A stretch of 44,695 nucleotides of DNA from an uncultured Clostridia bacterium (GTDB taxonomy: Bacteria; Bacillota; Clostridia; Christensenellales; Aristaeellaceae). A program made the translations under genes and the position numbers. The notes under the pieces were generated by a model. That model did not search any database, had not been told where the DNA came from, and saw only the letters and a list, made by a program, of their open reading frames with translations. The stretch is taken from positions 1 through 44,695 of the forward strand of contig CAMHSI010000008.1 in assembly GCA_946187775.1 (NCBI GenBank), read 5' to 3'. This document shows positions 6,538 to 23,476 of the stretch, piece by piece; position 1 is the stretch's first letter, and the number at the start of each line of letters is the position of its first letter.

Positions 6538-6553
6538 GTTAGTAGACGCTAAC
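6538..6553 (+). promoter_or_regulatory. Palindromic operator, copy A (GTTAG-TAGACG-CTAAC)
   Basis: A perfect 5-bp inverted repeat with a 6-bp centre, overlapping the predicted transcription start of the ABC transporter. The same element occurs at 6613, 19311 and 23425. Its placement is typical of a repressor. The regulator is not in the window; a DtxR/IdeR-type metal repressor is my inference from the linked iron genes. Confidence 0.75.
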
Positions 6554-6560
6554 CGAAAGG

Positions 6561-6597
6561 AATCGCGCGGCAAGAGCGCAGAAGCGGCGGCGCGATT
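6561..6597 (+). other. Inverted repeat in the leader of the ABC transporter
   Basis: AATCGCGC at 6561-6568 pairs with GCGCGATT at 6590-6597 around a 21-nt loop, followed by TATTTT. It lies between operator copies A and B. It could be a weak attenuator or simply leader structure. Confidence 0.35.
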
Positions 6598-6612
6598 TAT
6601 TTTCAGCACGGA

Positions 6613-6628
6613 GTTAGATAAAACTAAC
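6613..6628 (+). promoter_or_regulatory. Palindromic operator, copy B (GTTAG-ATAAAA-CTAAC)
   Basis: A second perfect copy, 75 nt downstream of copy A and 30 nt before the ATPase start codon. No good promoter is seen for it, so it may be an auxiliary site for looping or roadblocking. Confidence 0.7.
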
Positions 6629-6657: not shown

Positions 6658-7359
6658 ATGGCGATTGTGGAGTTCAGGGACGTATCAAGGGTATACCGGA
6701 ACGGGGATCACGAGCAGCGGGCGCTGGACCACGTGAACCTGAGCCTGGAGGAAGGGAAATTCATCGTGGTGCTGGGGCCCAGCGGCGCGGGGAAAAGCAC
6801 GCTGCTGAACCTGCTGGGCGGGCTGGACAGCCCCACGGAGGGAACCATCCTGGTGAACGGAAAGGACATTTCCACGCTGACCCCCAATGAGCTGGCGGAA
6901 TACAGGGCGGCCTCCGTGGGATTCGTATTCCAGAGCTACAACCTGATTCCCACCCTGACGGTGGTGGAGAACGTGGCGCTGGTGAAGGAGATCGCGCCGA
7001 ACCCCCTGGGAAGCCATGACATGCTGAAGGCGGTGGGCCTGGAGGATCATATCCACCAGTTTCCCTCGGAACTTTCCGGCGGCGAGCAGCAGCGGGTGTC
7101 CATCGCCCGGGCGCTGGCCAAGAATCCCCATATCCTCCTGTGTGACGAGCCCACCGGCGCGCTGGATTCGGAAACCGGCGTCATGGTGCTGAAACTGCTG
7201 CTTTCCATGGCCCGGGACCTGGGGAAGACGATCATTATCGTGACCCATAACCAGAACATTGCGAAGATGGCGGACGTGGTGATCCGGGTGAAAAACGGAA
7301 AGATCCGCTCCTGCGAGGAGCAGGAGCATCCGCTGAGCGTGGAAGAGGTGGACTGGTAA
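6658..7359 (+). CDS. ABC transporter ATP-binding protein (MacB/LolD-like)
   Basis: A 233-aa cytoplasmic ATPase of the class that pairs with FtsX-type permeases. Walker A is GPSGAGKST near residue 45, the Q-loop is FQSYNL, the signature is LSGGEQQR near 140, Walker B is [11 protein letters not shown] and the switch histidine is in VTHNQ. GGAGGG lies 7 nt before the start. The stop overlaps the permease start by one base (TAATG), so the two are coupled. Two copies of the GTTAG-N6-CTAAC palindrome precede it, implying shared metal control with the iron operon on the other strand. The substrate is unknown. Confidence 0.9.
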
Positions 7360-9656
7360 TGCTGCTGAAGAAACTTTTCCGTACGCTCTGGAGGTACAAG
7401 GCCCAGTTTATCTCCATGATCATCATGGTTGCCCTGGGCGTGGGCGTATTTCTCGGATTCAACGTGGAATGGTACTCCCTGGAGGTCAATACCGGGGAGA
7501 TTTACAAGGCAACCGGCTTCGCGGACTTCCGGATTTATTCCGACAAAGGCTTCACCGTGGAGGATCTTGAAGCGGTGAAAGCCATCGACGGGGTGGAGGA
7601 CGCGACACGCTTCCTGTCCATGGATGTGTCGGTGCAGGGAGATACGGATACCCTGGCCCTGGCCGTCAGCGAGAACATGAAGGTTTCCGGCATCCTCCTG
7701 ATGGAAGGGGAGGAATACAACCCGGAGGATACGGAAGGATTCTGGCTTTCGGATTCCTACGCGAAGGCCAACGGCATCCGGGTGGGGGATCCCCTGACCC
7801 TGAGCTACCAGGCAATTACCGTATCCGGAAAGGTAAAGGGACTGGTGAAATCCAGTGAATTCCTGATCTGCCTGCCGGAAGGGACGAACCAGATGATGCC
7901 GGATTATTCCTCCTACGGATATGTGTACATCTCCCCGGCAATGCTGGACCGGGCGGTACCCGCCGTGCTCCGGATGATCACCGGGGAAATGTACCACCAG
8001 ATCAACGTGAAGTCCTCCCTGGACAAGGCGGCGTTTGTGGAAGCGGTGGACAGGGCCCTGGGAACCACCCGGCTGGTGCTGGCAAAGGAGGATACCATTT
8101 CCTGGGCGGAGGCCCGGGGAGAAGTGGAGGAAGGCAAAACCATGGCTTCCATCCTGCCGGTGCTGTTCCTGGCCATCGCGATCCTGACCATGGTTACCAC
8201 CATGCACCGGATCACCGCCAGCGAGAAAACCCAGATCGGAACCCTGAAGGCCCTGGGATTCAGGGATCGTCGGATCCTGGTGCACTACAGTGCCTATGCG
8301 CTGTGCATCGGAATCCTCGGAACGCTGCTGGGTATCGGCATCGGATACTGGCTGGGATGGTTCATCATGAACCCGGACGGGGCGATGGCCACCTACATCG
8401 ATATGCCCTCCTGGACGCTGCACGCGCCGGCCTTCACCTGGATTGTCATTATCGCCATCAACCTGTTCCTGACGCTGATCGGGTTCCTCTCCGTGAGGAA
8501 AATGCTTTCCGGAACGGCGGCGGACGCCCTGCGTCCCTATACGCCGAAGCGGATGAAGCACCTGCGGTTTGAGGAAACAAAGGGATTCAAGAAGCTGGGA
8601 TTCGGCACCAAGTGGAACCTGCGGGACTGCGTGCGCCATAAGGCCCGGAGCTTCATGACCCTCTTCGGCGTGCTGGGATGCATGGTGCTGCTGGTGGGCG
8701 GCCTGGGCATGAAGGATACCATGGACGCCTTCCTGAATGTTTTCTACGAGCAGGCCATCAATTACAAAACCCGGGTGAACCTGGACACGGAGCATGTGAC
8801 GGCGGATGAGGCAAAACAGCTGGCGGAGGAGCTCCGGGGCGACTGGTCCGCCTCCCGGGCGGTGCAGATCGGCGACAAGGGATATTCGCTGGAAATCTAT
8901 TCCCTGAAGCATGACAAGGTGCGGTTCGCGGATACGGACATGAAGATCATTCCCCTGGAGGACGGTGGAGCCTACATCTGCTCCCGGATCGCGAAGGAGT
9001 ACCGCCTGGGGATCGGGGACACGATTTCCTTTGCCCCCTATGACAGCACCGAGCATTACACGGTGCCCGTGGCGGGGGTGCTGGACTCCATGACGGAAGG
9101 CATCTTCATGACGGAGGGCTTCGCAGAGAAGATAGGGATTCCCTTCACGGTTTCCAGTATCTACACGGATGAAACGGAGATTCCGGAAAACGGGAAGATC
9201 CTGAACAAGCAGTCGAAGCAGTCCATTATGGATTCCTTCGATACCTTCATGGACCTGATGAACAAAATGATCTGGCTGCTGGTGGCAGCGGCGGTGATCC
9301 TGGGCATCGTGGTGCTCTACAACCTGGGCGTGATGAGCTATACGGAGCGCTACCGGGAAATGGCCACCCTGAAGGTGGTGGGATTCAAGGATTCAAAGAT
9401 CGGCCGCCTGCTGATCAGCCAGAACCTGTGGCTTACTGCCGTCGGAACGGTGCTGGGAGCCGCGGCGGGCTACGCGGTGCTGCGGTACCTGCTGGAGGCG
9501 CTGGCGGCGGAGTATGAGCTGAAGCTGGTGCTGGGGCCCGTAACCTGGATCGTCAGCATCCTGGTGACCTTCGGGGTTTCCCTGCTGGTGGGCATCCTCG
9601 TGGCCCGGAAAAACCGGCATATCGACATGGTAGCCGCGCTGAAGACCGAGGAGTAA
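7359..9656 (+). CDS. FtsX-type ABC permease, 765 aa
   Basis: A two-half permease. One membrane segment near residues 17-37 is followed by a large external domain, then three segments (about 265-385). The second half repeats this with a segment near 430-450, another external domain, and three segments from about 627 to 755. The cytoplasmic ends of both FtsX units show the usual [12 protein letters not shown] and [12 protein letters not shown] blocks. Such proteins act mechanically on external substrates, in peptide, lipid or drug export or envelope signalling, rather than as importers. It has one partner ATPase, so the 765-aa chain probably supplies both halves. Control by the palindromic operators suggests a role in metal limitation, but no substrate can be read from the sequence. 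Confidence 0.85.
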
Positions 9657-16889: not shown

Positions 16890-17444
16890 TTACCATTCCT
16901 TCACAAATTTCCAGCCGGTCCAGGTGGCGGTCAGGGGTTCGGTCCAGAAGCCGTCCTTGGCTTCAACGCCGGTCTCGGAATCCACGTGGAGCAGGTAGCC
17001 GTTTTCAGCGGGGCTCTTGATGGACAGGGTGATGGAATACTCGCCTTCAGGCAGGGCGATGTTGTTGCCGTAGTGGGGGCCGTCAGAGGCAGCCATGGGC
17101 ATCATGGAGCCGGAGGTGACTTCCTTACCGTCCTTGTCCTTGATGACGAAGTCGATGCTCAGGTAGGGAACCCAGCCGTCCACCGGGAAGCCGTAGGGGT
17201 TCTCGTTGGCAGTCAGGTCCACTTCGATGTGCAGGTCATTGCCTTCCTTGGGAGCGGCATTCTCGGCGGGAGCCATATCCACGGGCTGGAAATATACCAT
17301 GCTCATGGTCATGAAGCCGACTTCCTGCTCGCCTTCGGTACCGAGTTCGTATTCATCAAAACCGGCTTCTTCTTCCGCAAGGCCTACGGCGGAAACGGCG
17401 AAGAGCATCAGGGCAGCCAGCATCAGGGAAATCAGTTTTTTCAT
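16890..17444 (-). CDS. P19/Tpd-family periplasmic-type iron-binding protein
   Basis: A 184-aa exported protein with a signal peptide (MKKLISLML... ending VGLA before EEE) and no lipobox cysteine. It matches the P19/Tpd/FetP family that binds Fe and Cu and partners FTR1-type permeases. The expected metal ligands can be placed: His72 in DLHIEVDL, Met115 or Met117 in GSMMPMA, His124 in GPHYGNN, and His153 in LHVDSETGV. Met-rich FMTMSM at 44-49 may add to the copper site. Length fits the family (about 175-180 aa). GGAGG lies upstream of the start. It lies directly after FTR1, the same order as in Campylobacter, and presumably presents iron to it. Confidence 0.92.
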   Translation of the reverse strand: MKKLISLMLAALMLFAVSAVGLAEEEAGFDEYELGTEGEQEVGFMTMSMVYFQPVDMAPAENAAPKEGNDLHIEVDLTANENPYGFPVDGWVPYLSIDFVIKDKDGKEVTSGSMMPMAASDGPHYGNNIALPEGEYSITLSIKSPAENGYLLHVDSETGVEAKDGFWTEPLTATWTGWKFVKEW

Positions 17445-17518: not shown

Positions 17519-19276
17519 TCAGGTGGTTTGCTGCGCTTTGAGCGCGTCGATCCTGCCGCGGTAATGGGCGATCATGAAGGTGACCAGCAGGATGATGGAC
17601 AGGATCAGCTGGGGAAGCAGGGTTTCCAGCCAGGGATAGATACCGAAGATCTGGATGATGTCATTCTCCGGAACCCCGGGAACCCTGAGGGTCAGGTCGA
17701 AGACGTTGCCCTCCGCCAGCTCCTTGATTCCGCTTCCCAGGAAGCTGACGCACATGACAGCCATCAGGATGGAAGTGGCCGTGAAGAAGATCTTGATGGG
17801 AAGCTTGATGGAAAGCTTTGTGATGGCCAGGTAAATGAACACCAGCAGCACGCAGCCGACGCCGAAGCCCGCCCAGACCATGCCGGGATTTCCTTCGCTG
17901 AGCATGGGCTGGTAAAACAGGACCACCTCAGCTCCTTCCCGGAAGACGCTCAGGAAGGCGGTGAAGCCCAGGGCAAAGGCGCTGCCGGTCTGCACGGAGG
18001 ACTGTACCTTGCCGTCGATGAACCGGGTCCAGCTGGCGGCCTCCGCCTTGGAAATCATCCAGTTGCTGACATAGAACAGGACGCAGACCGCAATCAGGGC
18101 GGTGACGCCCTCAATGATCTCCTGGGCGAGGCCGGCGCCGACGAAGGCCTGCTTGGCCCAGGCGAGAACCGCCGCGGCAGCAAAGCTGGCGAGAATGCCG
18201 GCGGCGGCGCCGATGTAGACGCTGCGCAGGCTCTTCCTGTTGCCGCTCTTGACCAGGTAGGCAATGATGGCCGCAATGACCAGGATCGCTTCCAGGCCCT
18301 CCCGGACAATGATTCCAAAGGCTCCGAGGAAGGTGAGCAGGCGGGGATCACTCTGCTGCTCCTCCTCCTGCGCCGGCTCGGCTGCCGCGGTTTCGGCGGC
18401 CTCGGCGGCTTTCTTTTCCTCATTCCTGGTATCGATGGACTTCGCGTATTTCAGCACGGTGTTCTTGGCCACATCGGTAGCGGTACGGAACTTGTTTTTC
18501 CGGAAACCCGTTTCACCGTTGTCGATGAGGGATTCAAGATCGGCGAAGCATTCGTCCATGGCCTTTCTTTCCTTAACGGAAAGGTCCGTATACAGGGCGT
18601 GGTCCAGGCCGGATTCCTCATACACGGTGTAATAGGCGGTATACAGGTTGTCCCGGGCGGCGTCAAAGTCCTTGTCCAGGTAGGCCAGGTAGGAGGTGTC
18701 CAGCAGCTCCTTCACCAGGGTGGCGGCTTCGTACCAGCTTTCATACTTCGCGGCGGCGTTGGGATCGGCGGAGTATTCCGGATAGGGATCCTGGGCGGAA
18801 AGCTCGCCCCGGAGGTAGTATTTTGTTTCACTCTGCACCCCGCCCTGCATGGCGGCCAGCTTGTTGCCGTCCTCCCGGATCATGGCCTTCAGCTTGGCAA
18901 GGGCGCTGCGGACGGAAACTTTGGTTTCCTGTGTCTGGTTTTCCTTTTTCACGGCAGCCTTGCAGGCGGAGAACTGCATCTCAACCGCGTTCTTCCGGTT
19001 GCCGCTGACGTAGCTCATGGTCTGGCGCTCGAAACCGGTGGTTTCATAGACGCGGAAATAGGCGTTGCTGACATTGTCGTAGGCCGCGGCGGCATCACCG
19101 TCGAGATAGGACTCAAAGGCGGCATCCAGGAATTTGTCGATTTCATCCGCCGCGTCCGCCCAGCGGGTGGAGGGCGCTTCCTCCGCCCAAACCAGGGAGG
19201 GCAGGAGCAGGAGCAGCATCATCAGTCCGCAGAGCAGCCGGGTCCGGAGTGTGTTTTTTCCGGTCATGGTATTCAT
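17519..19276 (-). CDS. FTR1-family high-affinity iron permease with N-terminal external domain
   Basis: A 585-aa first gene of the iron operon. Residues 1-31 are a signal peptide. Residues 32-285 form an external domain built from two related halves (around 45-110 and 187-255, both with a Y-L-D-x-D...A-Y-x-x-V-Y-E pattern). Residues 285-310 are an Ala/Glu-rich linker. The rest is a seven-helix FTR1 domain with both REXXE iron motifs, REGLE at 325-329 and REGAE at 446-450. FTR1 proteins import ferric iron, usually after oxidation or binding by a partner; here P19 follows. AAGGAAG precedes the ATG. The palindromic operator at 19311-19326 lies just after its -10. Confidence 0.93.
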   Translation of the reverse strand: MNTMTGKNTLRTRLLCGLMMLLLLLPSLVWAEEAPSTRWADAADEIDKFLDAAFESYLDGDAAAAYDNVSNAYFRVYETTGFERQTMSYVSGNRKNAVEMQFSACKAAVKKENQTQETKVSVRSALAKLKAMIREDGNKLAAMQGGVQSETKYYLRGELSAQDPYPEYSADPNAAAKYESWYEAATLVKELLDTSYLAYLDKDFDAARDNLYTAYYTVYEESGLDHALYTDLSVKERKAMDECFADLESLIDNGETGFRKNKFRTATDVAKNTVLKYAKSIDTRNEEKKAAEAAETAAAEPAQEEEQQSDPRLLTFLGAFGIIVREGLEAILVIAAIIAYLVKSGNRKSLRSVYIGAAAGILASFAAAAVLAWAKQAFVGAGLAQEIIEGVTALIAVCVLFYVSNWMISKAEAASWTRFIDGKVQSSVQTGSAFALGFTAFLSVFREGAEVVLFYQPMLSEGNPGMVWAGFGVGCVLLVFIYLAITKLSIKLPIKIFFTATSILMAVMCVSFLGSGIKELAEGNVFDLTLRVPGVPENDIIQIFGIYPWLETLLPQLILSIILLVTFMIAHYRGRIDALKAQQTT

Positions 19277-19310: not shown

Positions 19311-19326
19311 GTTAGCGCAATCTAAC
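19311..19326 (-). promoter_or_regulatory. Palindromic operator, copy C (GTTAG-CGCAAT-CTAAC)
   Basis: A perfect palindrome 35 bp upstream of the FTR1 start and 9 bp downstream of the -10, where a bound repressor would block transcription of the whole iron operon. Confidence 0.78.
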
Positions 19327-23310: not shown

Positions 23311-23357
23311 AAAAAAAGAAAAAGAAAGCGGGGCGCCGTACGCTGCAGCGCCCCGCT
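23311..23357 (-). terminator. Terminator of the candidate small RNA
   Basis: A perfect 10-bp GC-rich stem (23327-23336 with 23348-23357) and an 11-nt loop, followed on the minus strand by a U-rich tail from the A-rich run at 23311-23326. Confidence 0.88.
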
Positions 23358-23424
23358 CCCTTTGGAGGTAAGGAATTTGGTATATCATCCGGGATGGCTT
23401 CACCCGGTTGATATCGTCCCAGAA

Positions 23425-23440
23425 GTTAGGATAAACTAAC
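23425..23440 (-). promoter_or_regulatory. Palindromic operator, copy D (GTTAG-GATAAA-CTAAC)
   Basis: A perfect palindrome starting at the expected +1 of the small RNA, 7 nt after its -10, matching the geometry at the iron operon and the ABC transporter. Confidence 0.78.
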
Positions 23441-23447
23441 TATCTGT

Positions 23448-23476
23448 ACTATAACAGATCCCCGCAATTCCGTCAA
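23448..23476 (-). promoter_or_regulatory. Promoter of the candidate small RNA
   Basis: On the minus strand TTGACG (23471-23476), an exact 17-nt spacer, and TATAGT (23448-23453). It starts 36 bp beyond the histidine kinase stop, so it is independent of that operon. Confidence 0.82.

Follow-up and report, generated by a model that had tools for sequence, protein, structure and literature searches.

We have identified a conserved structured RNA element in a 44,695-nucleotide stretch of DNA (hereafter the window) from an uncultured Clostridia bacterium, genome G000, and it is a conserved RNA gene of one gut Clostridia genus. The element shares a specific operator with a set of genes that includes iron genes, and a DtxR-family repressor gene neighbours it in a relative. 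Very probably it is a metal-controlled RNA gene, with iron as the likeliest signal. Based on comparative sequence analysis, it probably encodes a DtxR-controlled, trans-acting, iron-sparing small RNA (sRNA) that would pair with Shine-Dalgarno sequences.

The element occupies positions 23476-23311 of the minus strand (Table 1). An initial annotation, made from the letters of the window, had described a TTGACG-17-TATAGT promoter followed by a GTTAG-N6-CTAAC palindrome at +1, in an intergenic stretch of about 285 bp, and a GC-rich terminator stem with a U-rich tail reaching 23311. All of these are present, the terminator stem having 18 pairs. The 12-bp hairpin of that annotation also lies where it was placed, with 11 pairs in the consensus and 13 in the minimum free energy (MFE) fold. 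Its unpaired C-rich segment was borne out in part: UUCCUUACCUCC is unpaired in the centroid fold, but in the MFE fold GGGA pairs with UUCC and AAAG lies within the base of the terminator stem. For the 131-nt transcript the predicted folding energy is -54.2 kcal/mol (z -5.0), and none of 200 shuffled sequences was equally stable; the terminator must be the source of much of this stability. Between 22000 and 30000 the terminator has the most pairs among 11 terminator-like sites, a number not above chance (8.0 expected), and the promoter ranks second among 6 promoter-like sites (1.6 expected). The MarR/OhrR-like gene downstream has a TTGACA-17-TATTAT promoter of its own (window 23300-23244) with a TTGCGCACAAGTAAATTGTGCAA dyad right behind it, perhaps the operator of that gene, and a glutathione peroxidase gene comes next.

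Table 1. Coordinates of the element, of the operators and of operator-linked genes (window positions unless a locus is named)
Feature	Position	Strand	Remarks
Intergenic stretch, kinase stop to MarR GTG start	23512 to ~23226		~285 bp; MarR start by eye
Sigma-70 promoter	23448..23476	-	TTGACG 23476-23471, spacer 17 nt, extended -10 TG-n-TATAGT 23453-23448
Operator GTTAGTTTATCCTAAC	23425..23440	-	GTTAG-N6-CTAAC at predicted +1
Predicted small RNA	23311..23440	-	~130 nt; both ends inferred
5' hairpin (helix 1)	23382..23414	-	11 consensus pairs
C-rich segment TTCCTTACCTCC / UUCCUUACCUCC	23364..23375	-	plus AAA to 23361
Core UACCUCCAAA	23361..23370	-	predicted anti-Shine-Dalgarno seed
Intrinsic terminator (helix 2)	23311..23363	-	18-pair stem 23363-23321, U-rich tail
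Operator upstream of FTR1/EfeU-like gene	19311..19326	-	
FTR1/EfeU-like iron permease gene	17519..19276	-	PF03239, E 3.3e-25
Fe2+ transport protein gene	16890..17444	-	PF10634, E 2.1e-47
Two exact operators 75 bp apart	6538..6628	+	upstream of MacB-like ABC exporter operon 6658-9656
HndA-linked operators	L161 3540-3555 (G000); L160 3057-3072; L153	- (L153)	
Operator pairs before DUF3793-like genes	L154 2506-2603; L158; L080; L086; L088; L078		

The absence of an open reading frame ahead of the terminator, likewise claimed at the outset, was confirmed for frames of at least 8 codons with a Shine-Dalgarno-like stretch in the G000 transcript. A small peptide gene on either strand is a far-fetched reading of the element. 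On the opposite strand TTTGGAGGTA followed by ATG (MVYHSG..) occurs in 6 of 20 genomes, but the start codon is missing in most genomes and variation in loop length breaks the frame (by eye), and this candidate was rejected with neither start codon nor frame conserved. A sense-strand frame, MPxRTGIP.., arises from the terminator arm in 7 of 21 copies; it was also rejected, as these frames begin within the terminator stem, overrun the terminator, vary in length and are missing from the window copy. ATG-started frames in that arm, found in 9 of the 20 other copies and all overrunning the terminator, look like a by-product of the arm. Promoter, operator and terminator, moreover, all belong to the sense strand.

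Convincing copies of the element were found within one genus only. Searches with blastn gave matches in 18 of 61 genomes, every one within the genus; the matches at L017 and L018 looked like chance. A covariance model (R1) found the RNA in 20 of 45 genus genomes, including 9 of the 13 of good quality (completeness at least 90%, contamination at most 5%), and did not find it in the other 25, four good-quality genomes among them. There are 21 good copies in the 20 genomes, mostly one per genome; G033 holds a remnant beside its two good copies, and G012 a remnant beside its single copy. These remnants (L041 1501-1593 and L042 1501-1596) have lost the 5' part and lie directly at gene ends, in line with turnover of copies in 3' untranslated regions (3'UTRs). 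A search for diverged copies in the 25 genus genomes lacking a model hit returned 30 weak rows in 17 genomes (E up to 1, best 28.4 bits), and the 10 loci inspected had no operator and no full core, being mostly ordinary terminators. Outside the genus, a strictly filtered search of 396 genomes drawn from the order, in which 10 candidates per genome were scored, matched only L043 and L044 (31-32 bits), both without the core. A pattern scan of the genome collection gave 21 stretches, of which the model confirmed 12 on 11 contigs and did not confirm 9. The confirmed contigs are labelled Clostridia or Clostridiales bacterium, and by length they correspond to contigs that the genus had yielded before; five labels name goat or sheep gut sites, and three carry RUG numbers, which we take to denote rumen genomes. 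A viral origin was discarded after none of six viral pattern stretches was confirmed by the model, as was a phage or plasmid origin, since blastn at E 0.01 gave no match in plasmid and phage records.

The annotation had also stated that it knew of no description of the RNA. No Rfam family reached its gathering score in the window or in four loci bearing other copies; the best sub-threshold match, under permissive settings, was the unrelated sRNA Xoo2 (E 0.006, 24.4 bits against 45). A literature search over top-ranked titles and open-licence papers likewise turned up no apparent description.

A covariance model from relatives and a look for compensating changes in both stems had been proposed as a check, and such changes are present in both. 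The alignment holds 21 copies and takes its structure from the consensus of a 16-copy alignment, and the tested structure is therefore favoured, that consensus being built from most of the same sequences. Standard pairs fill 98.2% of the alignment cells, and both-sided changes occur at 10 of 26 pairs, in 30 cells, against a mean of 6.8 after shuffling and 0-9 cells when partners were slid along, a control that preserves relatedness. In helix 1, 98.7% of cells are paired and two pairs show both-sided changes; in helix 2 such changes occur in 8 of 15 pairs. Relatives keeping neither the hairpins nor the CCUCC segment had been named as the finding that would speak against the RNA. The 21 copies instead keep both stems, and ACCUCC is found in 21/21. 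UACCUCCAAA is kept in all but one copy (20/21; the exception is G008), and the CCUCC module is doubled in G016, G017 and G063. Conservation of AAAG need not reflect targets, because AAAG also pairs within the terminator. As judged from the alignment, the element appears to join a conserved open seed to compensated stems, as a trans-acting sRNA would. That a promoter, a palindrome and the kinase operon's terminator came together by chance, as the position behind a histidine kinase gene might suggest, is already refuted by this conservation and has next to no probability left: the RNA occurs with compensatory changes in 20 genomes, 14 copies have promoter and operator, and the neighbours vary.

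The promoter of its own that the annotation gave the element holds for 14 of the 21 copies, which have a promoter and an exact operator, but not for five, which lie in the 3'UTRs of operator-bearing operons. In the former group the operator lies 22-32 nt upstream of the model start in 13 copies and 64 nt upstream in G021. The promoter spacer is 17 nt in 12 copies (by script) and in the second G033 copy (by eye) and 18 nt in G021, and 12 of the 14 have TG-n-TA at the -10 element. The five promoterless copies (G009, G016, G017, G028 and G063) begin 3-5 nt after a stop codon, and exact operators precede them at a distance of 0.8-3.3 kb. The genes in between include, in at least one case, DUF3793-like, flavodoxin and secreted or lipoprotein-like ones, and after four of the five copies come ZIP-like, methyltransferase-like or DtxR-type genes (mostly by eye in both instances). 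The G020 copy is truncated by a contig end. For the G004 copy, the 4 kb upstream lack an exact operator; farther up, a gene that by eye is FeoB-like begins at 6.4 kb and an exact operator lies at 7.0 kb. Such a mix of free-standing and 3'UTR copies is unusual.

These settings bear on whether the element acts in cis only, as a terminator or processing module of iron-regulated transcripts or as a dtxR attenuator. Five copies directly behind stop codons in operons, and two copies and one remnant directly upstream of a DtxR-type gene, would suit such a role. However, the downstream gene varies among genomes, a separate promoter and operator serve 14 of the 21 copies, and a terminator leaves unexplained both the conserved first hairpin and the open CCUCC, doubled in three genomes. 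We consider a purely cis-acting element improbable, at roughly one chance in eight.

The operator in its exact GTTAG-N6-CTAAC form occurs 45 times in 338,711 b around RNA copies; in the same sequence, 29 permuted arms occur 0-2 times each, and other spacings from 2 to 11 also 0-2 times. As these 338,711 b were chosen for holding an RNA copy, whole genomes give the fairer count: 6 operators in G000, 8 in G035 and 11 in G064, with 0, 1 and 1 for the reversed controls. Only the exact form stands out, since sites with mismatches are at chance level: the window has four exact operators, and allowing two mismatches gives 5 sites where 5.5 are expected. The annotation had tied the operator to iron uptake, and the FTR1-like permease gene 4.0 kb from the element does have an operator of its own (Table 1). 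Across several genomes, genes behind operators encode FTR1, FeoA (PF04023), DUF3793 (PF12672), a ZIP transporter (PF02535), a MATE transporter (by eye) and MacB-like ABC exporters; operator-linked genes outside iron metabolism, namely regulators, a methyltransferase-like gene and others, were seen as well. The paired operators in the window suggest that the MacB-like ABC exporter belongs to the metal regulon. Pairs 76-82 bp apart recur before DUF3793-like genes, the second sometimes mismatched (Table 1), and this family of unknown function looks metal-regulated here. In G009 an operator leads a row of genes with DUF3793-like and flavodoxin (PF00258) members and an RNA copy at the end.

In G033 a gene for a DtxR-family iron-dependent repressor (PF01325 and PF02742) starts 51 nt behind a copy, and DtxR-like genes were seen by eye about 37-40 nt behind the G063 copy and 31 nt behind the G012 remnant. 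One DtxR-type gene has the coordinates L087 8570-8926. We infer that a DtxR-type protein binds the GTTAG-N6-CTAAC operator. Regulators of this family also include manganese sensors, such as MntR, the regulator of the RsaC system. The conserved sRNA might, then, be controlled by manganese or another metal, or by general metal stress, and have other targets. Exact operators before the ZIP transporter and (by eye) the MATE exporter would fit, as would, in both G002 and G008, a one-mismatch operator before a gene that by eye resembles phosphoglycerate mutase. The clearest operator-linked genes, in contrast, are iron genes (FTR1, PF10634, FeoA and flavodoxin), and we regard control by another signal as unlikely, at about one chance in seven. 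The one-mismatch operator of G002 and G008 lies about 10 nt behind the sRNA copy (L074, L077) and the phosphoglycerate mutase-like gene about 45 nt behind it (by eye); its product is possibly a metal-sparing isozyme.

In G000, G035 and G064 an exact operator also starts 145-162 nt ahead of the ATG of a gene like HndA (PF01257; Table 1); it is absent at that place in G004, G017 and G063. By eye it is upstream of the promoter, not over it, and would therefore suit activation by the iron-loaded regulator.

With iron as the signal, the mechanism can be sketched; transcription, the identity of the repressor, the direction of the iron response and the repression of targets are its inferred steps. 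When iron is plentiful, a DtxR-type repressor would sit on GTTAG-N6-CTAAC over the start site and keep the RNA gene off, and the same repressor would silence those iron-uptake operons that have this operator too. Under iron shortage it would depart, and an RNA of about 130 nt would be made, with its end set by the terminator of the gene itself. The open CCUUACCUCC(AAAG) of this RNA could then pair with the Shine-Dalgarno sequences of iron-protein mRNAs and block ribosome binding, iron-free substitutes such as flavodoxin being induced meanwhile. In some relatives this RNA would instead form part of the 3'UTR of operons that bear the operator. We regard anti-Shine-Dalgarno action on the mRNAs of iron proteins as the likeliest mechanism and would put its chance slightly above even.

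Candidate targets were sought with the pattern TTTGGAGGTA-N2-11-ATG, which places a perfect match to the seed core, by complementarity, in a ribosome-binding site. The 20 RNA-bearing genomes gave 31 rows, which became 25 sites on removal of six that are antisense of the element itself; a 13-aa open reading frame (L112) was retained. Iron proteins stand at 11 of the 25: a 2[4Fe-4S] ferredoxin in five genomes, an HndB-like hydrogenase subunit in three and rubrerythrin in three. They were called by Pfam where scanned and by likeness for the ferredoxins except L109, the HndB-like proteins except L165 and the rubrerythrins L183 and L195/L196. The HndB-like Pfam score (20.3 bits) is below the cut-off of 24.8, and the name also rests on position, the gene sitting behind the HndA-like gene. 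In 19 genomes from 11 other genera of the family an iron protein stands at one of 30 sites (30 of 48 rows classified, five of the 30 proteins by eye only; p 0.0005 against 11/25). For the canonical AAAGGAGGTA, in six of the 20 RNA-bearing genomes, the figure is one of 29 (30 of 39 rows classified, giving 29 sites, four of the proteins by eye only; p 0.0005 against 11/25). No difference was seen in the genus genomes that had given no hit to the RNA, 14 of the 25 being covered, with iron proteins at 6 of 14 sites (15 rows, two being one site; p 1.0). As orthologues are not independent, we also counted by gene family, and the contrast, 3/16 against 1/29, was then not significant (p 0.12).

Predicted pairing energies place the ferredoxin start regions high in their host genomes: in 13 of 17 genomes, no more than 3.5% of the 286 start regions pooled for comparison paired as strongly with the host's own RNA. 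The same rank was reached with the consensus seed in 9 of 15 genomes lacking a detected RNA. Compared with other leaders, those of ferredoxin show a stronger preference for the seed over the 16S tail, whether the genome has the RNA (p 4e-5) or not (p 9e-4). Of 200 seeds that share the ACCUCC core but have random flanks, 31 were equally good for ferredoxin, with and without the RNA. Ferredoxin as a proven target on energy rank was accordingly rejected as not specific. CTTTGGAGGT stands ahead of the HndB-like gene in 6/6 genomes examined, the window's own included, and in all six it belongs to the coding end of the preceding reading frame (..IFGG..). Its conservation can be explained by coding, and it was dropped as conservation evidence; this slightly lowers the odds of the iron-sparing sRNA reading and of the wider regulatory loop outlined below. 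Ferredoxin, the HndB-like hydrogenase subunit and rubrerythrin are plausible candidate targets on the basis of these predicted sites.

One genus offers a natural series of states, in which the RNA is a gene of its own, a 3'UTR passenger, a remnant or not found, and it can hence be traced how an sRNA gene arises and moves. Should the predicted targets be true, iron supply would be tied to ferredoxin and hydrogenase synthesis: an RNA shutting off ferredoxin and the hydrogenase operon would let iron set the hydrogen output of gut bacteria. The fuller picture is speculative, and we would give it little better than one chance in four: within one genus, a single DtxR-type operator would govern the sRNA both free-standing and as a 3'UTR passenger, in a coherent loop where the repressor controls uptake, flavodoxin and the RNA, and the RNA in turn shuts off ferredoxin and the hydrogenase operon, with iron supply setting the hydrogen output.

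The element represents a new family in a functional class that is already known, no match to a known family having turned up in Rfam. Its architecture had been likened to the FsrA and RsaE types of Gram-positive regulatory RNA, and the shared plan stands, but the adjoining regulator gene is of the DtxR type. FsrA is controlled by Fur, in contrast to the DtxR-type regulator gene seen beside copies of the element. RsaE/RoxS has inducers other than the iron-type signal proposed here. Neither the FsrA nor the RsaE/RoxS model is among the element's Rfam matches up to E 10. The best reading is that the element is analogous, not homologous, to FsrA and IsrR.

Like the element, FsrA of Bacillus subtilis is short (84 nt) and C-rich; it is iron-sparing, as the element would be, and binds the Shine-Dalgarno sequence via a C-rich motif (PMC9410917 and PMC12871923, both in excerpt); its helpers FbpA, FbpB and FbpC are Fur-controlled (PMC12871923, excerpt). 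RoxS likewise has C-rich regions, which in its case pair with ribosome-binding sites rich in G, in the same excerpt (PMC12871923). IsrR of Staphylococcus resembles the element in its conservation within one genus, single-stranded C-rich regions and Rho-independent terminator; it is iron-repressed and pairs near the Shine-Dalgarno sequences of iron-enzyme mRNAs (PMC9410917, excerpt). Compared by its description there, IsrR differs in its 174 nt, three C-rich regions and two Fur boxes, and it is characterized as not an orthologue of other iron sRNAs (PMC9410917). MrsI of Mycobacterium is an iron-starvation sRNA, as the element would be, with a promoter-region site for IdeR of the DtxR family, and represses iron proteins (PMC8628891, a review, in excerpt); by that description it belongs to another phylum and has a six-nucleotide seed. 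RsaC of S. aureus is a metal-sparing sRNA from the 3'UTR of an MntR-repressed metal-transport operon (PMC12421985, excerpt). Such a 3'UTR location is seen in five of the 21 copies and not in the window copy and 13 others, and RsaC, part of the mntABC operon in the manganese response (PMC12421985), differs from the element in this respect. RyhB, FsrA and IsrR are unrelated iron-sparing sRNAs of different bacterial groups (PMC9410917, excerpt), and the element looks like another independent origin of such an RNA, in gut Clostridia and under a DtxR-type operator.
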